A DNA stretch of 10,810 nucleotides from Saprospiraceae bacterium (GTDB taxonomy: Bacteria > Bacteroidota > Bacteroidia > Chitinophagales > Saprospiraceae): positions 1-10,810 of the forward strand of contig CANETR010000022.1 of the NCBI GenBank assembly GCA_947441325.1, written 5' to 3'. The notes under the pieces are model-generated. The model did not search any database and was not told where the DNA came from. It saw nothing but the letters and a program-made list of their open reading frames with translations. Shown here in pieces: positions 1 through 10,810 of the stretch. The stretch's first letter is position 1; every line of letters begins with the position of its first letter. A program made the translations under genes and the position numbers.

Positions 1-1340
1 CTCATTAGTTCCGAGAGCACTAAATTCCCCGTCAGCGTAAGTGTAACATGCACCAAAGAGTGATAATAGGCCTCATTGCTGTTGAAAATATGATAAGGAA
101 CAGTTGAAAAGACATGATTCAAAACCTCAAAAAACTCGGGCCATGTTCTATTCCAAAGCGCGTCCTGTATTTTTATGATGACATCGCTGCTCAACAGCGT
201 AGGAGATTCCCCTGAATACTGAGAGAGCAGATAAATCATGAAAGAGGATCTTACCTCGTGGTTGGGAAAACCCAGAACATAGCGTCGGCGTTCATAATGT
301 CCGCTTATTTCTCTAATAGTCAGGTACCCTGTCTGATATAACAAAGAAAGAGCATCGATATGCTGAATGTCAGCAGATTTAAAAACAATATCAGTTGCCT
401 TTAGGTACTCCAAACGGGCTGGATCTATTTTTTCTTGCGATATAAGCTCCATCAAAAAAGTTGGCGTACCGGTTTCGAACCAATAATTCTTAAATTGATA
501 CTTATCGAAAAAATTTAGTATTGAGAAAGGGTTGTAAAGTTTTGCAGATAAATCATCATCGAAGCTGTAGCCATTATACCAACTCTTAACAGAGGCTGTC
601 AGTTCATGAATACTGATTTTAAATTTTTGAGCGCCAAAAATAAATCGATCTTCAAATAGCAGATCAAGTTCCTCCTGTGTGTAACCGCAGATCTTTGCGC
701 TTTCTGCATTCATGCTGATGTCGTTGAGGTTGTTCAGATCGGAAAAGATAGAAACCTTGCCGTATTTTGAAACACCTGTAATAACGACCTTGTGCAGATA
801 TTGATCGGCTCCTTTCAGAATGCCATAGAATGATTTTAATTCTTTAACATGTTTGGCCGATATGTCCTCTTCAGTAATGTAATCGGTTATTGGTTTGTCG
901 TATTCGTCTATTAATACTATACATTTTCCTGAAGCTCCTCCCAATTCCTGAATTAACTGTCGGAAACCGGATGCAGCATCTTCAGAATTTAATTTAATTC
1001 CAAATTTCTCGGCATGTTCTTGCATTTGAGTCATAAGGCCTGCCTCTAGGGTGCTTTTTCTGGTATTAATACTGCTTAAATCCACATGAATCACCGGATA
1101 AGTTTTCTCCCAATTCCATTTATCCTCAATCCAGAGCCCTTTAAACAGTTCTTTTTTTCCCTGGTATAAATATTTCAGGGTGGACAACATGGTAGATTTT
1201 CCAAATCGGCGAGGGCGCGATAGGAAAAAATATTTTCCCTCCAAAAAAACATCATAATAAACCTCGGTCTTATCCACATAGAGATAATCTCCGCTTCTTA
1301 AGGTTCCAAAATCTTGTATGCCAATGGGTAATGCTTTCAT
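1..1340 (-). CDS. AAA-ATPase-like / PD-(D/E)XK nuclease family protein, 3' end cut by window edge
   Basis: I translated 446 codons by hand without a stop; the gene runs off the left edge. The N-terminal half fits the AAA-ATPase_like family (PF09820). It opens KALPIGIQDFGTLRSGDYLY, followed by a P-loop RPRRFGKST (residues 42-50), Walker B IVLIDEYDKPI (141-151) and an ITGVSKYGKVSIFSDLNN stretch (187-204). The family hallmarks SWYNGY (253-258), LYNPFSILNFF (268-278) and YWFETGTPTFL (286-296) are all present. The end, from about residue 407 (VPYHIFNSNEAYYHSLVHV), is the beginning of the C-terminal PDDEXK_9 nuclease domain (PF08011), whose catalytic core lies mostly outside the window. Family members are usually a little over 500 residues, so roughly 70-80 are missing. 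The family is abundant and often multicopy in Bacteroidota; its biological role is not established. The ATG at 1340 matches the family N-terminus. It is separated from the genes to the right by a terminator and has its own promoter. Confidence 0.93.
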   Translation of the reverse strand, partial: MKALPIGIQDFGTLRSGDYLYVDKTEVYYDVFLEGKYFFLSRPRRFGKSTMLSTLKYLYQGKKELFKGLWIEDKWNWEKTYPVIHVDLSSINTRKSTLEAGLMTQMQEHAEKFGIKLNSEDAASGFRQLIQELGGASGKCIVLIDEYDKPITDYITEEDISAKHVKELKSFYGILKGADQYLHKVVITGVSKYGKVSIFSDLNNLNDISMNAESAKICGYTQEELDLLFEDRFIFGAQKFKISIHELTASVKSWYNGYSFDDDLSAKLYNPFSILNFFDKYQFKNYWFETGTPTFLMELISQEKIDPARLEYLKATDIVFKSADIQHIDALSLLYQTGYLTIREISGHYERRRYVLGFPNHEVRSSFMIYLLSQYSGESPTLLSSDVIIKIQDALWNRTWPEFFEVLNHVFSTVPYHIFNSNEAYYHSLVHVTLTLTGNLVLSELM

Positions 1341-1719: not shown

Positions 1720-2022
1720 TTAGTAAATTGGGCTAGATGGCAATTGAGCATTGGATGATTTGTAGGTCCCATCATTATAATTTAAATAATACATTTTCGA
1801 CTTCCCAGTTTCAGTGTCCCAGACTAAAACATTATAATATGATTTTCCGTCTCTTTCAGAAGATTCTTGATCCATCATAAACTTCCCAGTACTATTTTCT
1901 GTCGAAGGATTATCAGCTTTAGCAGGATTGATGGTAGCAATAAGGGCAGCTGAACCAAAAAGAATGGTGCCTGATACCAGGGCAATGCCGAAGCATTTTT
2001 GAAGGAAATTGGAGATTTGCAT
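1720..2022 (-). CDS. Small exported protein, paralogue of the gene at 3090-3383
   Basis: This 100-residue protein has a clear Sec signal peptide: a short polar/basic start (MQISNFLQK), a hydrophobic core (residues 11-30) and an A-K-A site at 34-36, predicting cleavage before Asp37. The mature part is 64 residues, starts DNPSTENSTGK, carries VWDTETGKSKMYYLN (31-45 of the mature form) and ends QLPSSPIY. It aligns without gaps to the mature part of the other small protein here, with 30 of 64 residues identical by my count. I do not recognise the family, and no catalytic motif is visible. The D-T-E-T-G-K-S-K segment suggests a beta-hairpin turn. It has no Cys after cleavage and is not a lipoprotein. 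The region just upstream of the start is a tandem octamer array, so expression could vary with array length. The start is supported by the signal peptide and by the paralogue. Confidence 0.82.
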   Translation of the reverse strand: MQISNFLQKCFGIALVSGTILFGSAALIATINPAKADNPSTENSTGKFMMDQESSERDGKSYYNVLVWDTETGKSKMYYLNYNDGTYKSSNAQLPSSPIY

Positions 2023-2261: not shown

Positions 2262-3062
2262 TTAGCGCGATGCTTTTTCCAAAGGCGGAAAAACAAGTTT
2301 CATACCCGGTTCTATAGCATAAATAGATGGCAGATTGTTTACCTTGGCAATTTGCAGGAAAAACTCGGGTGAGCCATATATTTTTTTGCACATGGCGGGT
2401 AGGTTGTCGCCGTATTTTACTTCAATGAGGTGAGAGAGGTCTGGAGAGTAGCCAGTTACAGCTTTCTCTGGATCTTCAACACCTATAAAGTCAAGAGCTA
2501 TTTCTGCTCTTATTGGAAATCCCTTGGCACTGAAAAGCGTGTATTTGATCTCCATCTCGCCCAATTGACATTTATAACGCCCTTCGGGGTGACTGCTATC
2601 ATTACTATGAGAGGGCAGAACCGAACCCCAGTTGATGAGCAGAAATGGAGGACCATGTTCCTCACTTTGCCAATTGTAGAGCACCTTTTTCATGCGCTCG
2701 ATGTAAAACTCTACAGTGGGCTGCTCCGATCCATCATCCATACTCCAATAGGTATTGGCATAGGGATCTTCCAAAACACCAGTAGCATCTACAATGGTAT
2801 CAATGCGCAGATTTGGCATTTCATATTTTTGAAATACCTGTGGGGTGAAGGAATTGCCTGCAGCGGCTTCAACACTGCTCCCAACTGACCCCGCTGCAGA
2901 TTGTCCACCTGTAGCATCTCCATATTTGACAGTAAATTTCAGGGCAATTTCTTGTGGATTTACCTGCAGGATTAGTTCATTGGGGTCTTCTATCGCTGTT
3001 GCACAGGCAATATCTTTGAAGGCTGATATGGTTAGTTTGGTTACTAAACTTTCGTTAGCCAT
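2262..3062 (-). CDS. Contractile injection system tube/LysM adaptor protein (Afp7/Pvc7-like, CIS_tube family)
   Basis: This 266-residue protein has two parts. Residues about 5-200 resemble the contractile injection system tube-protein N-terminal domain (PF19266 as I recall it): ELILQVNPQEIALKF (29-43), FLLINWGSVLP (140-150), and the typical block CQLGEMEIKYTLFSAKGFPIRAEIALDF, about 165-192. Residues 210-260 are a LysM domain (LIEVKYGDNLPAMCKKIYG ... IAKVNNL ... IEPGMKLVFPP). In phage-tail-like particles (Afp, PVC) this adaptor sits at the tube-baseplate junction next to the VgrG-like spike, and the particle is assembled in the cytoplasm; no signal peptide is expected or seen. It lies 27 bases downstream of a small secreted protein gene and is probably cotranscribed with it. 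None of the usual neighbours (sheath, tube, spike, baseplate, AAA ATPase of the eCIS type) is in the window, so it appears orphaned. Length is normal for the family. Confidence 0.85.
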   Translation of the reverse strand: MANESLVTKLTISAFKDIACATAIEDPNELILQVNPQEIALKFTVKYGDATGGQSAAGSVGSSVEAAAGNSFTPQVFQKYEMPNLRIDTIVDATGVLEDPYANTYWSMDDGSEQPTVEFYIERMKKVLYNWQSEEHGPPFLLINWGSVLPSHSNDSSHPEGRYKCQLGEMEIKYTLFSAKGFPIRAEIALDFIGVEDPEKAVTGYSPDLSHLIEVKYGDNLPAMCKKIYGSPEFFLQIAKVNNLPSIYAIEPGMKLVFPPLEKASR

Positions 3063-3089: not shown

Positions 3090-3383
3090 TTAATACAATG
3101 GAGAAGCGGGTAATTGGAAAGACTCAGGATTCATTTTTATTGTTGTGGTGTTGAGTCCGTATATCTTGGATTTTCCACTCTCAGTATCCCAACCTAAAAC
3201 TAGGTAAGAAAGTTTTCCGTTGTACACCGTTGCCGTGGTTGAAAACATATATTTCCCTGAGTTATTAACTGTTGTAGGATTATCTGCCTGAGCGGGGCTG
3301 ATGGAGTAAATAAATACACCAATACCGAAGAAAAGTACGCCTAAAGAAAGGGCAATTTTTTGAAATGCATTTACAAAGTTCAT
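3090..3383 (-). CDS. Small exported protein, paralogue of the gene at 1720-2022
   Basis: This 97-residue protein starts at the ATG at 3383. The frame is open 51 codons further upstream to 3536. I chose the inner start because it places the signal peptide at the N-terminus and matches the paralogue's length. The signal peptide is MNFVNAFQK, then a hydrophobic core (residues 10-28), then A-Q-A at 31-33, with cleavage before Asp34. The mature 64 residues begin DNPTTVNNSGKYM, include GWDTESGKSKIYGLN and end QLPASPLY. They align gap-free with the second small protein. The function is unknown. Export to the periplasm or outside is predicted. It precedes the LysM adaptor gene by 27 bases, which suggests a two-gene transcript. 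I did not find a convincing promoter upstream. Confidence 0.82.
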   Translation of the reverse strand: MNFVNAFQKIALSLGVLFFGIGVFIYSISPAQADNPTTVNNSGKYMFSTTATVYNGKLSYLVLGWDTESGKSKIYGLNTTTIKMNPESFQLPASPLY

Positions 3384-4008
3384 AGGAGGTAGATTTTTAT
3401 TGTTTGTGATAAAATTATAAATACATATTGAAATAACCAAAGGCCGTGCCATTTTTTTAGAAAATAAAAAATATTTAAGAAGGGGTGATATCGGCGTTGA
3501 TTGGAGAATAGCTTTGGAGTGGGGAATGACTTGCAAGAAAGAATAGAGATATAGACTTTGTATTACAGAGATTTAAGAAATTAGCACAGATTTTTAACCC
3601 AGTCAAAGAACCCCAATGGATTTAAATATTTATGCGAATCAAGGGTTGGATTTTTAAAACTTAAATATCATAAAATCCTAGCAAACAATCAAACAGGTCA
3701 CCCCTACGGGGCTTTTTTTTATCTTATTCAATTATAACTAAGAACAGTTGACTCCTACGGAGCCATTTTTGCTCCATAGGAGCGACCTGTTCTTAGTAAA
3801 AAATGTAAACCCCCGTAGGGCTGACCTCTTAAAACAACCTATAGTTTTTGCAAATGACATATTGTCAATTTATTAAGGCAAATATTTTTAAGCTATTGAT
3901 GTAAAATAAGACCTTTTTTAACTCTTGATTCGCATTATTTGTATAAAAGTATGACAAGTAATAAGTGCGACTCCAATAGACGGTCGAATTATTCTTCCGA
4001 GGCGTTCA
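3384..4008. other. Non-coding region with nested palindromic element
   Basis: No gene is supported over 625 bases. 3384-3631 is plain A+T-rich sequence. 3632-3935 is a symmetric palindromic element described separately. 3936-4008 is spacer after the stop of the giant gene. No clear T-run terminator for the giant gene was found on the minus strand, so the palindromic element may serve as its 3' end. Confidence 0.6.
3632..3935. repeat. Nested inverted-repeat element with four REP-like units
   Basis: Three inverted repeats are nested around one centre. The outer arms are ATGCGAATCAAGGGTT (3632-3647) and 3920-3935, matching at 15 of 16 positions. The middle arms are AGGTCACCCCTACGGGG (3695-3711) and 3811-3827, matching at 16 of 17. 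The inner arms are 3738-3763 and 3771-3796, matching at 22 of 26, with a 7-base centre. The middle and inner arms are all versions of one unit, roughly AACAGGTCRCYCCTACGGRG, in + + - - order. Each unit ends in its own small hairpin (CCCC-TAC-GGGG or CTCC-TAC-GGAG type). The layout resembles a REP/BIME or a small non-autonomous element; no protein is encoded inside. Confidence 0.85.
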
Positions 4009-7000
4009 CTATTCCAAATTTATATTTCCCAAAACATTGCCACCAGTGAGCACATCATCCAATTGCAACTGCTGTTCCAGCTGCTCTATCAGGCCCATGC
4101 CCATTTCGAAATCGAGGCGATCGAAGCCAAAAACCACTTCCTTGACAGCATTGCCCTCCTTTTTGGGTGCCTTTACTGCCCCCTCTTTCAGCGTTACATA
4201 ATATTCAAGGTCGTCGCGCTCGAGGCCACTGGCACTGAAACGAAGGTCGCCCAAACCCAGCAGCAGATTGGCAAAATAGTGAATCTGATGTTTACTGTCT
4301 TCGAGGACAATTTTGCCTGCTCCTTTTATACTGCTGTTTTCCTCGCTGTAGTTGAAATTGCCTTCGAGGCTAAGGGTTGCAGCATCGTCAATAAGATAGT
4401 CGCGGGTTGCAGCAACTGCATTGTTGCCAGTTTCAAAACCTGCATTTTCTCTGATAAAGCTCAGGTAGTTGCTTGCCTGTTGGTCTATGCCGGTTTGCAG
4501 TTCGCGGTATTTTGCTCTGTTGGCATTTATTTTCTCATCCAAAGCGTTCAATCTGGCATTGACGGCAGCAGGATCATTCGAAATAGCATCTAAGTTGAGC
4601 ATCCTATTAAAATCCTCTTCGCTCAGGCTGGTAAAATCAATATTTTCGGCCTCGGGTTCACCGCTTTCGAGAGATTTTATTTGATTGTACTCTGTTGAGA
4701 GTGCCGTGAAATCTTCATCAATTTTAAAGCTCTGTTCCTGCGATTTATTTACTTCGGCGCGATAATGTGCCAGTTCATGTCTCATTTCATCCTGCGCATC
4801 GGCCAAGTCAAGGTCATTGATATAGGCATCCTGTATATGGCTTCCCTGCAGTAATTCGTGAATGGCTTGCAATTGATTATCGGCACCGGCCGAGGCAGAA
4901 TTTATGGCATTGTTTCTTTTGTCGACTCCCTGATGCACACCCGATTTGAAGCCATTGTGATATCCTTTTTGGTAGAGTTTAAGGAATTTTGACCACAAGC
5001 GGCCCAGTATATCAGCAAAATATTTTATTAGATTTTCGTCGGAATTGTCTTCAAAACTATTTTCAAGTTCCTTTTGAATCTCTTTCATTTCGGCCTCGAT
5101 AAAATCTTTAACAGACTCATTATCGGCTGGCGCCCTTTCGGTACTATCTTTAAATTCGCTAAGAATTTTTCTAAAACCCAATGTGATGTTTCGATGATTA
5201 CCCAGGGAGGAGGGGTCATTGCTGTCAACCTTTGTATCTCTGTGTAATTTATAATCAGCGCTGATCAGTTTGCGCAGTGCTGCTCTTATATTGCTAATTC
5301 CCTGATATTCCATTCTTTCCAAATCCGATTTTTGCATATCGGGATTTGTTTTTGCCAGCCTCAATCCGCTCGAAACGCCTTCTTTGAAAGCATCTGTAAA
5401 TGCGGCTTCCCCTTCATTGTCCATGCTTTCGTGCATGGAGTTGAAAAAATCGTCGGCAGCATCTTTGCGCTCCTCATCGGGTTTGATATTTTGTTTGAGT
5501 TCTTTTATGCTAATGCCGTCCTGCAGCCCGATTTCACCGCCTTTGAAAAAGCCGGCTCGGAATTCACTGACATATTCAACACTAAACTCATTTAGCTGCT
5601 CAATGATTCTTTGATCGGAGTCATTCAGGCTATTTTCAGCAATAAAAATTCGGTCGGCTTCTTTGTTGATCAGGTCAAATTTCTTGTTGAGGTCCATTTT
5701 TTCATCTGGACGCTTCATTTTGGATAAATTTTCCAGAATCTGGTTCAGTGCAGTGTTTAGGTTTCGGTTCGAGCTGTTTTGAACAATGGCTTTTTCGAGT
5801 TCTTTTTCAATTTTTTTCTGAATTTTTTCATGAACGGCAGAGCCAGCTTTCAGGGCAAACTGTTTTTTCAGTGCGGCGATATTGTTACCTTCTTCGGGTG
5901 TTTCGGGCATTTTGAATGCTTCATTATAGCCTGCTTCGATACCATCTGCACGGCTATCCAAAAACCCTTCGCGGTACTGACCGATGAGGTTGGCGATTTT
6001 ATTACCCATCTGCAGCGATTCGGTCGAAAGGGCAGTTTTGGCATTGTTTACGGTACCTGCGGCCTTGTCGAGCATACCCTGTTTGCGTCCTTCTCTTACA
6101 CCTTCCTGAAAGGAGGACCGCTGTTGAATATCGGCATCGACACTATTGTCGAAATCGTCATCGGCATTGCTGTTATTCACCTGATTATAGGCCCTGTTGT
6201 AGCCACGCCAGTATTCGATTGCTTTTTGATAGGAGCGCTTGAATCCCTCTTCGTAAGCGGCATTCAGTTCATCGTTCAAATCATTTTTTATCTCGGGCCT
6301 TTCGGGCAACGGGTTGCCTTCCAATATTTCTTTGGCAGCATTTTCGCCGGCATTTTCACCCTCTTTGTAACCCTTGTTATAGGCTTCTTTATAGGCGGGG
6401 CCCTGCATTTCCACGCTAAAATCGGAAAGGCTGGACATGCCTGCCTGTATTTGTACGAGCATTTGCTCGCCCCTTATTTTCCCCTCTTTAAATTTGGCCT
6501 TTTTCTCAAAAACTTCCTCTGTCAGATTGGCTGCTTCCAAGTGTTCTTTCGATTTTTTTGATTTACTGAGAAAGGCTTCGGCTACAGATTTATTTTCGGG
6601 CAATTGCAAAAATCCATCTTTGTTAAGACCATGAATAATTCCGATACTAAAAAGGGCATCGTCATTGGTTTTGTCATCGATACTGCTTTTTGCTTTTTCT
6701 ATACCGGCGCTGTATCCTTGTTTGAACTGCTGTGTAAGACTCTCTTTAGACATGCCCTGTTCGTCGGCAATACCCTGCAGAAAGGCGCTTTTTTCGTTGG
6801 CTCTTTTATTTATGGCATCATTTTTCTTTTCCTTGGTTTTTGCGGCAAGCAGTATGTCGCTACCCGGCTTTTCCTGTTCAGAAAGACCAATAATATTCAT
6901 TTCAACAGATGCAAAATCTTTAGAAAGTTCTTGACCTTTTAGTAGGGTAAATATTTTAAGCCAGGCGTTCTGATCGGTTTTGTAGCCTTCTTTGAAGGCA

Positions 7001-9939
7001 CGCATAAGCGCTGCTACAGCAGAGGGGCCCAGGTCGCCAAGCTCCTGCTCCTGGTTTGATATGATGCTGTCGTTGCTGCTCATACCTGCTGCTGCCATTG
7101 CAGCTGTTCTTAGATTTTGATATTCACTTTGTGCCTGTCCGGCTTTGTAGCCCTCGTTGTAATAAAAATCTGTATCAACTGCTTTTTCGCCGCTTGTACC
7201 TTGTTGCAGCCCCAGGCTGAATCGGTCGGCAGCCTGATTTCCCATTTTTTTGCCATGGGTATTACCTGCTTTGAACTCATTGACAAGCTTTTCCGCTTGA
7301 GTAGGATTTTTGAAATCGGCAGGCAGGCGCTCCTCGTCGTCAATTTCTTTGTTATTTGCATCGGCAAATTCCATGATTTCATCTTTCATGCCTTCGCTCA
7401 GTTTATTCACTTTGGCATCTGCATCAATATCGGTAGCTGATTTTGCAGCATTGTAAATAAGGTCGAATGCAGCCTCTTTTCCTTGTTGGAAATAGCGTTG
7501 AAAAATGGCTTTATGTTTTTCATTTTTGCCACGGGTTTTTAATTCTGCCAGGAATGCATCTTTATTTGTTTTGCTTTCTTGGTCGAGTGCGGCTGCAGGT
7601 GCAGCAGCGCCTCGAATTACTGCCGAATTGAAAGCATTGATAAAGCCAGAGCTGTATTCTTCCCCCTGCGTTTTGGCAATATTCATGGCGCTCAAGATAT
7701 TGCTGTTGAGTTGAGCTCTTTCAACAGGACTGGGCCTGCTGGCTAATTTTTGGGCGACTGATTCACCGAAGCTCGTACCAGTTTCATAGCCACGTCCATA
7801 ATCAGAGCCTGAAGCAGCCCCTTGGGCAGCCTTGTTTTTTCTGGCTTCGGAACGGGCCTGAACAGCAGATGCCACTTCAATTTGATAGGCCAGCGAAAAG
7901 GTAGAAAAGTAGCCTTTTTTGTAAGATTCGTTGGCTGCACCGATGTTGGTTTCAATTCGCTCGAGATTGGCAGCAATGCTTTCGATTTTTGACTCAATTT
8001 CAGCTATTTTATTCTCATCGCTGAGTGTAGAAACTTTCTTAATTAAGCGCTCTTTGATGGCAAGGGCCTGCCCGGCTGTTCTGCCAATTTCCTGCCCTGC
8101 CTGATAATCGGGATTGCCCTCACGAGCAGTCTTTTTAGCATTGACAGTATTCTGCTGTTTTTTTACATATTCTTTGTTAAACTGTTTGAAATAGCCTTTT
8201 TCGAAAATTTTGACTTTTTCCTTATTGGCTTCAATTTCAGGATTTGGAATTCCCGAGCTTATGTAAATATTTGTATGATTGGTACTCAGAAAATAGTCGT
8301 GAATCTCAGCAGGAATCTGTTCCATACTCGTTCCAAGAGAGGAGAGGTCAAAATTTCTGTCTTTGAGTGCCGCCAAGGCCATGTCATCGCCCAGGAAAGC
8401 TGCCAATCCGCCTTTGAATCGCCCGGCAAGGAAATGTATATAGTTTTCTTCGCCTTGTTGCGGGCCTGCATTTTTTCTTTTTACTTCAGCTGCTGCCACC
8501 ATTCTGCCATTGCTGTAGCCTTTGTTTAGTCCGGCGAAAAAACCTTTTTTGAAAAGTGGGTCGGGTGTTGATTGATTATTTTCGCCCTCTTTTATGACCA
8601 GGTTGCCTTCTGCATCTTTATTTTGATTCGCGAGGGCAGATAATCTCTTTAAATCATCCTGAGATATTTCATTTTTTGCCGATTGCATACCGCATTGCTC
8701 GCCCCAGGAGTAGCCACGGGCAAAATTTGGACTGTCGGCCATCAGTTGATCTGCCGATGGGTGACTTTGAGCTACTTTTGCTTGTCGGGCTTCGGTATAT
8801 TTTTTATTAAATCCGCTATTGAATCCGGTACGGTAATTTTCCGATTTATCGGGGCTTTGCGCTTCCTGGCGCAGGGCATTTGCCCCAGCCTCATCGCCTG
8901 AACCCGATAGTGTGCCTGCATTTTCTCCTGCTGCTAAGCCATCCTGATAGCTCTGATCGTTGTGCAGAGCGGTTTTTTTCATATCGACCTTCATCTGCTG
9001 ACCAAGGATATAACCGTGGTTAAAGCCAGATAAAAAACCTTTTTCTCTTTGTTCTCTGATTCGCTGTAACAATGCAGCATCGCTTATTCCTTCGCAGGGC
9101 AATGCTAGCAGACGGTTTTTGATACTGTCGCTGTACTCTTTTTGGATTGTCGGATCGGCCGACAATGATTCTCCTACAGCAAATCCGCCTTCCGATTTTG
9201 TCACTTTTTTACCCATTGCGAGGCTGCAACCGGCCTCCATACCTGCATTTTTTCCCTCCATGAATGCGGCGCTAAGGGTGGCGGCATTGGGATCTTCTGC
9301 AACAGTAGGTTGTAATGCAAGAATATCTTTTGAAGCGTTGTCGGCAGCTGCTGTGCTTTGCGTGGGACTGTTTTCGCTGCCCTGCTTCTGCGTTTCATTG
9401 CTGCTAGCAGATGGAACGGAGCCTGAGCCAGCACTAAGGCCAGCGCCCATAGTAGTTGCGCCTTCTTCGGGATTTGTTTCCGCTGTCTCTGTCGCTTTAA
9501 TTTCGCTGATGAGGCTATTGAGGCTTGAACCAGCCTCGTCAGGTGCCGAACTTTGATTGCTTAAAGTGGCATTTTCGGTATTTTTTTCTACTTCGTTGAG
9601 TTCTGATTTTGAGTTTTCGCCCGAGTTGTCTTCTGCCTTAGCAGTGGAGAGTCCTCCACCCATAAGCGGTACGGTTTCGTTTTCTGTGGAGACTAAACCT
9701 TCGGATGAATTTTCAACAGTTTCGCCACCCATTCCAGAAGATAATCCTCCGCTCGAATCTCCCATGCCCATTGTGCTGATGCCGCCACGGTTGGCATTGG
9801 CATTGGCATGACTGTCGTTGACTTCGTCATCGTGGTGTACCCCTCGCAGGCCTTCTAGCTCGTAAATTTGGTCGCTCAGCGGTTCTTTGCTGGCGTACTC
9901 TTTTACTTTTTGGAGATTATCTTCGCTATTGGGGGTCAT
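4009..9939 (-). CDS. Giant 1976-residue repeat protein with alternating Gly-x3-Gly helical motifs, function unknown
   Basis: I do not recognise this gene. There is no signal peptide or membrane segment, so it is likely cytosolic or loaded into a particle. Residues 1-35 are possibly structured (QIYELEGLRG). Residues 36-215 are Ser/Gly/Asn/Glu-rich and probably disordered, with recurring MGxGLS. Residues about 222-1675 carry around 20 helical motifs in two alternating flavours. Type A is like YxxGxxxGxxxGxxxA (e.g. 330-346, 611-627, 713-729, 1275-1293). Type B is like KGYFxxFNxxYxxxxxxA (e.g. 299-324, 369-390, 464-490, 580-605, 674-705). The first six A/B pairs repeat every 70-115 residues; later ones are more diverged. 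Residues about 1690-1830 look like coiled coil. Residues 1850-1945 look beta-rich (AATLSLEGNFNY, FSASGLERDDLEYYVTL). Only three Cys are present (238, 282, 416). Glycine-every-fourth motifs also occur in Yae1/Lto1-type proteins, but no homology can be claimed. An eCIS cargo, tape-measure-like ruler or scaffold is possible. Confidence 0.9.
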   Translation of the reverse strand: MTPNSEDNLQKVKEYASKEPLSDQIYELEGLRGVHHDDEVNDSHANANANRGGISTMGMGDSSGGLSSGMGGETVENSSEGLVSTENETVPLMGGGLSTAKAEDNSGENSKSELNEVEKNTENATLSNQSSAPDEAGSSLNSLISEIKATETAETNPEEGATTMGAGLSAGSGSVPSASSNETQKQGSENSPTQSTAAADNASKDILALQPTVAEDPNAATLSAAFMEGKNAGMEAGCSLAMGKKVTKSEGGFAVGESLSADPTIQKEYSDSIKNRLLALPCEGISDAALLQRIREQREKGFLSGFNHGYILGQQMKVDMKKTALHNDQSYQDGLAAGENAGTLSGSGDEAGANALRQEAQSPDKSENYRTGFNSGFNKKYTEARQAKVAQSHPSADQLMADSPNFARGYSWGEQCGMQSAKNEISQDDLKRLSALANQNKDAEGNLVIKEGENNQSTPDPLFKKGFFAGLNKGYSNGRMVAAAEVKRKNAGPQQGEENYIHFLAGRFKGGLAAFLGDDMALAALKDRNFDLSSLGTSMEQIPAEIHDYFLSTNHTNIYISSGIPNPEIEANKEKVKIFEKGYFKQFNKEYVKKQQNTVNAKKTAREGNPDYQAGQEIGRTAGQALAIKERLIKKVSTLSDENKIAEIESKIESIAANLERIETNIGAANESYKKGYFSTFSLAYQIEVASAVQARSEARKNKAAQGAASGSDYGRGYETGTSFGESVAQKLASRPSPVERAQLNSNILSAMNIAKTQGEEYSSGFINAFNSAVIRGAAAPAAALDQESKTNKDAFLAELKTRGKNEKHKAIFQRYFQQGKEAAFDLIYNAAKSATDIDADAKVNKLSEGMKDEIMEFADANNKEIDDEERLPADFKNPTQAEKLVNEFKAGNTHGKKMGNQAADRFSLGLQQGTSGEKAVDTDFYYNEGYKAGQAQSEYQNLRTAAMAAAGMSSNDSIISNQEQELGDLGPSAVAALMRAFKEGYKTDQNAWLKIFTLLKGQELSKDFASVEMNIIGLSEQEKPGSDILLAAKTKEKKNDAINKRANEKSAFLQGIADEQGMSKESLTQQFKQGYSAGIEKAKSSIDDKTNDDALFSIGIIHGLNKDGFLQLPENKSVAEAFLSKSKKSKEHLEAANLTEEVFEKKAKFKEGKIRGEQMLVQIQAGMSSLSDFSVEMQGPAYKEAYNKGYKEGENAGENAAKEILEGNPLPERPEIKNDLNDELNAAYEEGFKRSYQKAIEYWRGYNRAYNQVNNSNADDDFDNSVDADIQQRSSFQEGVREGRKQGMLDKAAGTVNNAKTALSTESLQMGNKIANLIGQYREGFLDSRADGIEAGYNEAFKMPETPEEGNNIAALKKQFALKAGSAVHEKIQKKIEKELEKAIVQNSSNRNLNTALNQILENLSKMKRPDEKMDLNKKFDLINKEADRIFIAENSLNDSDQRIIEQLNEFSVEYVSEFRAGFFKGGEIGLQDGISIKELKQNIKPDEERKDAADDFFNSMHESMDNEGEAAFTDAFKEGVSSGLRLAKTNPDMQKSDLERMEYQGISNIRAALRKLISADYKLHRDTKVDSNDPSSLGNHRNITLGFRKILSEFKDSTERAPADNESVKDFIEAEMKEIQKELENSFEDNSDENLIKYFADILGRLWSKFLKLYQKGYHNGFKSGVHQGVDKRNNAINSASAGADNQLQAIHELLQGSHIQDAYINDLDLADAQDEMRHELAHYRAEVNKSQEQSFKIDEDFTALSTEYNQIKSLESGEPEAENIDFTSLSEEDFNRMLNLDAISNDPAAVNARLNALDEKINANRAKYRELQTGIDQQASNYLSFIRENAGFETGNNAVAATRDYLIDDAATLSLEGNFNYSEENSSIKGAGKIVLEDSKHQIHYFANLLLGLGDLRFSASGLERDDLEYYVTLKEGAVKAPKKEGNAVKEVVFGFDRLDFEMGMGLIEQLEQQLQLDDVLTGGNVLGNINLE
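4915..9276 (-). repeat. Protein-level repeat region of the giant gene (A/B glycine-zipper modules)
   Basis: This segment encodes residues 222-1675. Type B motifs share G-[FY]-x2-[GF]-F-N-x2-Y followed by a Lys/Ala-rich tail: GFLSGFNHGY (301), GFNSGFNKKY (372), GFFAGLNKGY (466), GYFKQFNKEY (582), GYFSTFSLAY (676), GFINAFNSAV (765). Type A motifs share three Gly at i, i+4 and i+8: GLAAGENAG (334), GQEIGRTAG (615), GYETGTSFG (717), GVREGRKQG (1280). The repeats are divergent at DNA level, so they are old rather than recently expanded. Confidence 0.85.
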
Positions 9940-10312: not shown

Positions 10313-10360
10313 AAAAAAAATCATCCGATTCGGAAAAAAAAGTGGCAATTGTGAAAAAAA
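10313..10360. promoter_or_regulatory. Three A-tracts phased at about 20-21 bases
   Basis: Runs of 7-8 A begin at 10313, 10334 and 10354, intervals of 21 and 20 bases, or about two helical turns. Such phasing is known to bend DNA. They sit 50-100 bases upstream of the transposase ATG, between it and the palindromic block. Confidence 0.5.
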
Positions 10361-10374
10361 GGGCATTACTTTGC

Positions 10375-10389
10375 GAAACAAATTGTTTC
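10375..10389. promoter_or_regulatory. Palindrome directly before the transposase start, possible operator
   Basis: GAAACAA-A-TTGTTTC is a perfect 7-base inverted repeat around one base. It ends 21 bases before the ATG at 10411 and overlaps the end of a TTACTTTG sequence that partly resembles a -7 box. It could be a repressor site or only AT-rich chance symmetry. Confidence 0.35.
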
Positions 10390-10410
10390 AAATTTAAAAT
10401 TCTCCAAAAA

Positions 10411-10810
10411 ATGAAGTACCTAGCCCCATTTGTACCCCAAGCCTATTACCACGTTTTCAGCCATGCCAACGGATTTGAAAATATTTTTCTCGATAATGGC
10501 AACTTTGAATATTTTCTAAGACAGTTCGAAAAATACATCAGCCCGGTGGCCGATACCTATGCCTACTGCCTCATGCCCAATCATTTTCACTTTTTGATAA
10601 AAATCAAAAGTCTGGAGGATTTGAAAATTCCGGATGATTATTCTTACGACATTCATAAGTTTGTGATGCAGCAGTGGAGCAATATGCTAAATTCCTACAG
10701 CAAGGCTTTCAATAAAATGCACAATCGCAGGGGTGCTCTTTTTGTCAATCAGCTACGCCGTTCCCACATCGACAGCGAAGAATACCTTTACAAAGTCCTG
10801 CATTATATCC
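10411..10810 (+). CDS. REP-associated tyrosine transposase (Y1, IS200-like), 3' end cut by window edge
   Basis: I translated 133 codons by hand from the ATG at 10411 to the right edge without a stop. The start MKYLAPFVPQAYYHVFSHAN is typical of the transposase IS200-like/RAYT family (Y1_Tnp, PF01797). The metal-binding HUH motif is HFH at residues 58-60 within AYCLMPNHFHFLI. The likely nucleophilic tyrosine is Tyr96 in SYSKAFNKMHNRRGALF. These enzymes nick and rejoin single-stranded DNA at hairpins and are thought to mobilise REP palindromes. Bacteroidota members are usually around 180-220 residues, so the C-terminal third is missing here. The gene diverges from the giant gene. Palindromes lie both just upstream and 6.5 kb away, in line with the family's link to dispersed palindromic repeats. 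Both catalytic motifs are intact. Confidence 0.92.
   Translation, partial: MKYLAPFVPQAYYHVFSHANGFENIFLDNGNFEYFLRQFEKYISPVADTYAYCLMPNHFHFLIKIKSLEDLKIPDDYSYDIHKFVMQQWSNMLNSYSKAFNKMHNRRGALFVNQLRRSHIDSEEYLYKVLHYI

Follow-up and report, generated by a model that had tools for sequence, protein, structure and literature searches.

Gene content of the window

The stretch of DNA analyzed here, referred to as the window, spans 10,810 bases and is the entire contig C22 of a draft genome (G000; 453 contigs, 63.26% complete) that belongs to the genus of Saprospira grandis. A giant gene occupies positions 4009–9939 on the minus strand, an exact open reading frame (ORF) with an ATG start that encodes 1976 aa, and its assignment draws on the ORF list, homologs, and dN/dS. 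The S. grandis-type genomes G001, G002, G003, and G005 are of the same genus as G000, as is G004; in all six pairs among the former, dN/dS of the giant gene was 0.06–0.10, which marks it as a constrained coding gene under purifying selection.

The initial annotation had placed a contractile injection system (CIS) adaptor gene downstream on the same strand, and such a gene was recovered at 2262–3062 (minus strand), encoding a CIS_tube protein (PF19266; Pfam E 1.4e-26) that we take to be an Afp7-like adaptor, with a weak LysM match, below the Pfam cut-off, at its end. It starts 946 bases past the giant stop codon. Between the two lies a small ORF (3090–3536, minus strand; assigned by eye) whose short product, from an internal ATG (∼3383), has a hydrophobic N-terminus and, compared by eye, resembles the small protein encoded at 1720–2022 (minus strand; also assigned by eye), which has a hydrophobic N-terminus as well. 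Three terminator-like hairpins were found between the giant and CIS_tube genes against 1.1 expected; given these and the intervening ORF, a single operon is only a candidate reading. The contig ends truncate an AAA-ATPase-like gene (PF09820 by Pfam; 3–1340, minus strand) and a transposase-like gene (10342–10809, plus strand; Y1_Tnp E 0.083, below cut-off); a neighbor similar to the former occurs in G004, where an ORF resembling the latter also lies near the giant gene. Mutually similar small proteins with hydrophobic N-termini were noticed by eye near the CIS_tube and giant genes of both G000 (1720–2022 and 3090–3536 in the window) and G004 (16280–16615 and 7819–8124 of locus L022), and a protein similar to the 1720–2022 product adjoins the G004 CIS_tube gene.

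A CIS_tube gene thus adjoins the giant gene in G000 (downstream, same strand) and in G004 (upstream, divergent), the two CIS_tube proteins sharing 52% identity, with long distances separating the giant gene from the CIS_tube genes in G001, G002, G003, and G005; we regard this adjacency as weak evidence for a link to injection. In G001 two CIS_tube genes (L074, L075) are located outside the sheath cluster, and the same holds in G002, G003, and G005. The giant gene sits in one conserved neighborhood in G001, G002, G003, and G005 and in genomes G543, G615, G661, G694, and G756 of genus g22 (genomes of 7.4–7.8 Mb; probably Aureispira, the name being inferred). The conserved neighbors, recognized by eye, are an acetyltransferase-like gene, a small membrane-like protein, and what is presumably a DUF4293-like gene, and this neighborhood looks like the ancestral place of the giant. 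No injection gene was recognized by eye among the ORFs flanking the giant gene in G001, G002, G003, G005, G026, G543, G615, G661, and G694. The giant and sheath genes are separated by ∼95–110 kb in G002, G003, and G005, by 1.4 Mb in G001, by 2.9 Mb in G543, and by 3.6 Mb in G661, and are on different contigs in G004, G026, G615, and G694.

Repeat pattern and domain anatomy of the giant protein

The protein opens with a polar, low-complexity part (residues 1–220; 9280–9939, minus strand), delimited from the sequence and alignments, in which conservation among relatives of ∼50% identity looks higher over the first ∼55 residues. It is followed by glycine/aromatic helix repeats (residues 226–1673; 4921–9264, minus strand), delimited by motif counts and a structural model. 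The initial annotation had described two alternating motif types over some 1450 residues, A (YxxGxxxGxxxGxxxA) and B (KGYFxxFNxxYxx), with glycines regularly at i, i+4, and i+8 together with aromatic residues. This regularity was far above that of shuffled sequences: there were 18 occurrences of GxxxGxxxG, for which 300 composition shuffles gave 0.93 on average and 5 at most, and 24 of [FYWH]xxGxxx[GA], for which 500 shuffles averaged 2.4 and peaked at 7, while Gly-Gly pairs within residues 211–1850 numbered 44 at spacing 4 and 23 at spacing 8, where ∼9 were expected from composition. The proposed extent also held, the motifs running from residue 226 to ∼1670. Strict alternation, read by eye from the sequence, was confined to residues 300–763 (B300, A331, B369, A406, B463, A503, B579, A612, B673, A714, B763); beyond residue 763 the order loosens, most motifs being A-like, and several of the KGYFxxFN copies have degenerated.

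An AlphaFold model of residues 290–790, built from nine sequences, was nearly all helical (mean pLDDT 80.2), in agreement with the helical repeats proposed, and the A and B motifs of this segment fall inside predicted helices when the motif map and the model are compared by eye; with a pTM of only 0.40, the way the helices are arranged as a whole is modeled with low confidence, and the rod, solenoid, or oligomer of the initial annotation is conjectural. Absent from the earlier description was a separate C-terminal part, for which a model of residues 1640–1976 gave long helices and then an eight-stranded beta domain (block pLDDT 78–93 in the beta part). The two long predicted helices (residues 1711–1759 and 1790–1833; together 4441–4809, minus strand) perhaps form a hairpin. 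The beta domain itself (residues 1855–1945; 4105–4377, minus strand) was delimited by a profile match at 1846–1969 and by AlphaFold, and was found in the relatives aligned. A related beta module occurs in another protein of G000 (L120, contig C446; profile E 7e-8, seven stretches), which consists of repeated beta modules over 686 aa to the contig end and had no Pfam or NCBIfam match; its relatives L131–L134 are open frames of 1304–1305 residues in G001, G002, G003, and G005.

Hydropathy analysis of the window protein revealed no transmembrane (TM) segment, no 19-residue window exceeding KD 1.05, and no hydrophobic N-terminus of the kind expected of an N-terminal signal sequence (export/T9SS), consistent with the soluble, signal-less protein of the initial annotation.

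Relatives, sheath types, and an effector-domain fusion

A match to a family of settled function was looked for and did not appear, so that the protein is still unrecognized, as first annotated: neither it nor its repeats matched any Pfam or NCBIfam family above cut-off or any solved-structure profile, and in PHROGs the window protein matched only one weak unknown. The sole Pfam match in the giant family was eCIS_core, in an extension of the G026 relative. The YG-box of SMN (PF20635) is a soluble glycine zipper, and its likeness to the giant lies at the level of the motif, as aromatic-x-x-Gly repeats in a soluble helix; homology is not claimed. The two differ in that giant relatives score below the PF20635 cut-off (19.2 bits in the G694 relative against 21.3), and membership was rejected; among ten repeat pieces this profile gave one match only (a window piece; 12.2 bits, E 0.16). 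Yae1/FliH-type GxxxG proteins were also rejected, as neither the window protein nor the ten pieces drew such a family from Pfam at E ≤ 1. The giant family was absent among the matches listed in a survey of literature titles and abstract openings (eCIS, Saprospira, Aureispira, T6SS), and a prior mention is possible. We conclude that the family is probably undescribed and, in the genomes searched, known only from Saprospira and close relatives.

Overall identity among the relatives found ranged from 17 to 51%. Three database proteins matched the window giant at 48–51% identity, the relatives in G001, G002, G003, and G005 at 22–23%, and those of g22 and g265 at ∼17–21%. In G004 the giant gene is broken up (L022, 9102–15987): one ORF encodes 1285 aa and another 743 aa, a 219-aa ORF separates the two, and the break is either a draft error or a real split. 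An alignment (A8) of the window protein with those of G001, G026, G543, G661, G694, and G494 and the N-terminal ORF of G004 contained 28 invariant window residues, 22 of them glycine, against 135 glycines in 1762 residues overall; since only the N-terminal ORF represents G004, no position farther along the protein could count as invariant. In nine unsplit sequences the repeat region (window residues 226–1845 in the alignment) measured 1550–1725 residues. Between G001 and the G004 pieces or G026, the giant was 24–27% identical, while the sheath was 85 and 76% and the spike 69 and 59% identical, respectively, and some other sheath-cluster genes were intermediate (37–56%, G001 versus G004 or G026). 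The giant is far less conserved than the machine genes, yet it is under purifying selection.

The sheath cluster of G001 (L073) comprises the sheath and, by Pfam, two gp19-like tube proteins, Phage_base_V, Pvc16_N, and two GH18-domain proteins, and, by eye, a gp25-like gene, a PAAR-like gene, and a membrane-like protein of 85 aa; neither a tape-measure gene nor an AAA-ATPase gene was noticed in this stretch (ORFs by eye, Pfam on nine ORFs). Two GH18-type proteins and the 85-aa membrane-like protein adjoin the sheath genes in L073, in L071 (G026), and in L076 (G004), GH18 identity having been checked by Pfam in G001 only. Weaker matches to GH18 proteins near sheath genes were also seen in G010, G028, and G056. 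Aureispira sp. CCB-QB1 has a subtype iv type VI secretion system, according to PMC11566945. The machine type accompanied by the giant family is probably this subtype.

In a search of 398 Saprospiraceae genomes with a seven-row profile, giants were found in 14 of them, in 3 of 112 genera. The G001 sheath protein matched 139 of the 398 genomes, and 16 of these carry a close sheath type, defined as ≥76% identity to the G001 sheath (G001–G005, G026, G475, G494, G543, G615, G661, G694, G718, G734, G747, and G756). The giant was present in 13 of the 16 genomes with the close sheath type and in none of the 123 with other sheaths. Another 259 genomes gave no sheath match, and the giant was found in just one of them, the window genome, 63% complete, whose contig C293 encodes a relative (55% identity) of the 725-aa GH18 protein of the sheath cluster and a second GH18-type gene (31–40% to the same query). 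Homologs residing mainly in genomes without a CIS, an outcome raised at first annotation, were therefore not observed, as 13 of the 14 carriers have one sheath type and the remaining one has GH18-type cluster genes and a CIS_tube gene. Among 60 relatives, the seven giant carriers were also the seven best matches to the 725-aa GH18 protein (E 1e-185 or less). G747 has the close sheath type and the conserved neighbors, but the giant is missing at the syntenic site, and G475, of the same sheath type, has a different gene at the usual site; a moved copy may lie in an unassembled part of either genome. The third, G734, gave no giant match and no match in an anchor search of the site. Taken with these absences at the site, the 13 of 16 same-sheath genomes show the giant to be tightly associated with the machine type and not apparently indispensable to it. 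All carriers fall in just three genera of a single family, so that the correlation could equally be explained in full by shared ancestry.

In G026 the giant runs past the beta domain into an eCIS_core domain (PF13699; residues 2206–2271, E 7.8e-9) and then a C-terminal domain. This C-terminal part matched three proteins at 49–56% identity over 65–90% of its length, two of which contain eCIS_core (P0005 and P0006); from sequence, a complete effector-type protein appears to be fused to the giant here, an arrangement seen once. The C-terminal domain (L020, 8595–9935; P0005–P0007) has conserved Cys and His residues and no Pfam match above cut-off. eCIS_core was missing from the window protein, from the relatives in G001, G543, G661, G694, and G494, and from the G004 C-terminal ORF. 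Genome-wide searches recovered three eCIS_core proteins in G004, four in G026, and none in G000, G001, G002, G003, and G005, so no eCIS_core partner in trans was seen in the latter. G010 has open frames with eCIS_core that are very large, the longest reaching 4627 residues (L121–L125); in L121 and L122, by eye and with Pfam for L121, long arrays of beta-rich repeats follow a polar N-terminus and eCIS_core.

Possible roles of the giant family

Our tentative preference is for the giant as an accessory, fast-evolving component of the contractile injection system found in the Saprospira/Aureispira lineage, either a payload (cargo) or a scaffold that carries cargo. This rests on the phyletic link to one sheath type (13/16 versus 0/123), on the G026 fusion to eCIS_core and a domain that otherwise ends separate proteins, on the CIS_tube gene that adjoins the giant in different relative orientations in G000 and G004, on a hydropathy profile with neither a TM segment nor an export signal, and on divergence faster than that of the machine despite purifying selection. 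It is weakened by the lack of linkage to injection genes in most carriers, by G747 and G475 without the giant at its usual site, by the single occurrence of the fusion, and by the absence of eCIS_core from most relatives and from S. grandis-type genomes. The cargo or scaffold role raised in the initial annotation thus stays conjectural, helped by one fusion to an eCIS_core effector module. Mechanistically, the glycine faces of neighboring helices would pack tightly into a soluble array of helices, compact or extended, and the giant would stay cytoplasmic and bind the injection apparatus by one end, to be fired with the tube or to keep effectors near the apparatus, as the fused eCIS_core effector in G026 suggests. 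The full version, a soluble ∼2000-residue glycine-zipper helix array, injected or injector-bound, that is loaded on the Saprospira/Aureispira-type CIS and serves as a carrier for fused effector modules, is on balance unlikely.

The closest parallels come from Streptomyces, where two reports describe Tme and Sle1 as tape-measure-related CIS effectors, Tme carrying eCIS_core (DUF4157) in cis and Sle1 binding an eCIS_core partner (PMC11126660, PMC13277306). As far as these accounts go, Tme/Sle1 and the giant are alike in being large, with long helical parts, an eCIS_core link, and a tie to a contractile system. Tme/Sle1 differ in their remote homology to phage tape measures, predicted TM helices, and position beside sheath or baseplate genes; the giant, by contrast, has no tape-measure match and no TM segment, is usually unlinked, and shows eCIS_core in one relative only. 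Despite these differences, the giant family could by analogy work similarly. Relative to eCIS-associated toxins (PF13699), as described in PMC11297309, the G026 member shares the domain and the C-terminal module of separate eCIS_core proteins, whereas eCIS_core is not in the window protein or the other relatives scanned.

Other explanations account for parts of these observations. A cytoplasmic scaffold or cytoskeleton-like rod, acting in cell shape, gliding, or machine organization and itself not delivered, is possible, if doubtful: it would suit the vertical inheritance in one neighborhood (S. grandis-type and g22 genomes), the invariant glycine scaffold, the soluble composition, and the S. 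grandis-type genomes without eCIS_core, but by itself it leaves both the one-sheath-type match and the eCIS_core fusion unexplained. That fusion, together with the CIS_tube neighbor, also argues against a protein unrelated to injection and kept by descent in the clade; such a protein would be expected from the restriction to three genera, a usual site away from injection genes, and same-sheath genomes without the giant, and we consider it improbable.

The proposal that the giant is a length ruler, that is, the tape-measure protein of the injection tube, lost ground and appears very improbable, less likely than the payload or scaffold. The long repeat region, helical where modeled, would fit a ruler, as would the G001 sheath cluster, in which no tape-measure gene was noticed (by eye, Pfam on nine ORFs), and the Streptomyces effectors provide a precedent, as far as described (PMC11126660, PMC13277306). 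Against it, there is no tape-measure family match in Pfam or PHROGs and no TM segment by hydropathy, the gene is unlinked in most carriers and missing at the usual site in two same-sheath genomes, and the repeat region varies between 1550 and 1725 residues. An archaeal contractile system cluster is likewise described, in PMC11566945, as lacking a tape-measure homolog, which indicates that one need not exist.

Should the payload or scaffold reading hold, the injection system of a predatory lineage would gain a further part, a repeat protein of very large size with no known relatives, and the natural fusion in G026 may show how effectors are attached. The giant, a single soluble chain in which ∼20 glycine/aromatic helix motifs have diverged, would also be useful for learning the rule by which such helices pack. 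Even without the link to injection, these giant proteins form a well-defined family that is subject to purifying selection and unmatched in Pfam, NCBIfam, and the solved structures searched.
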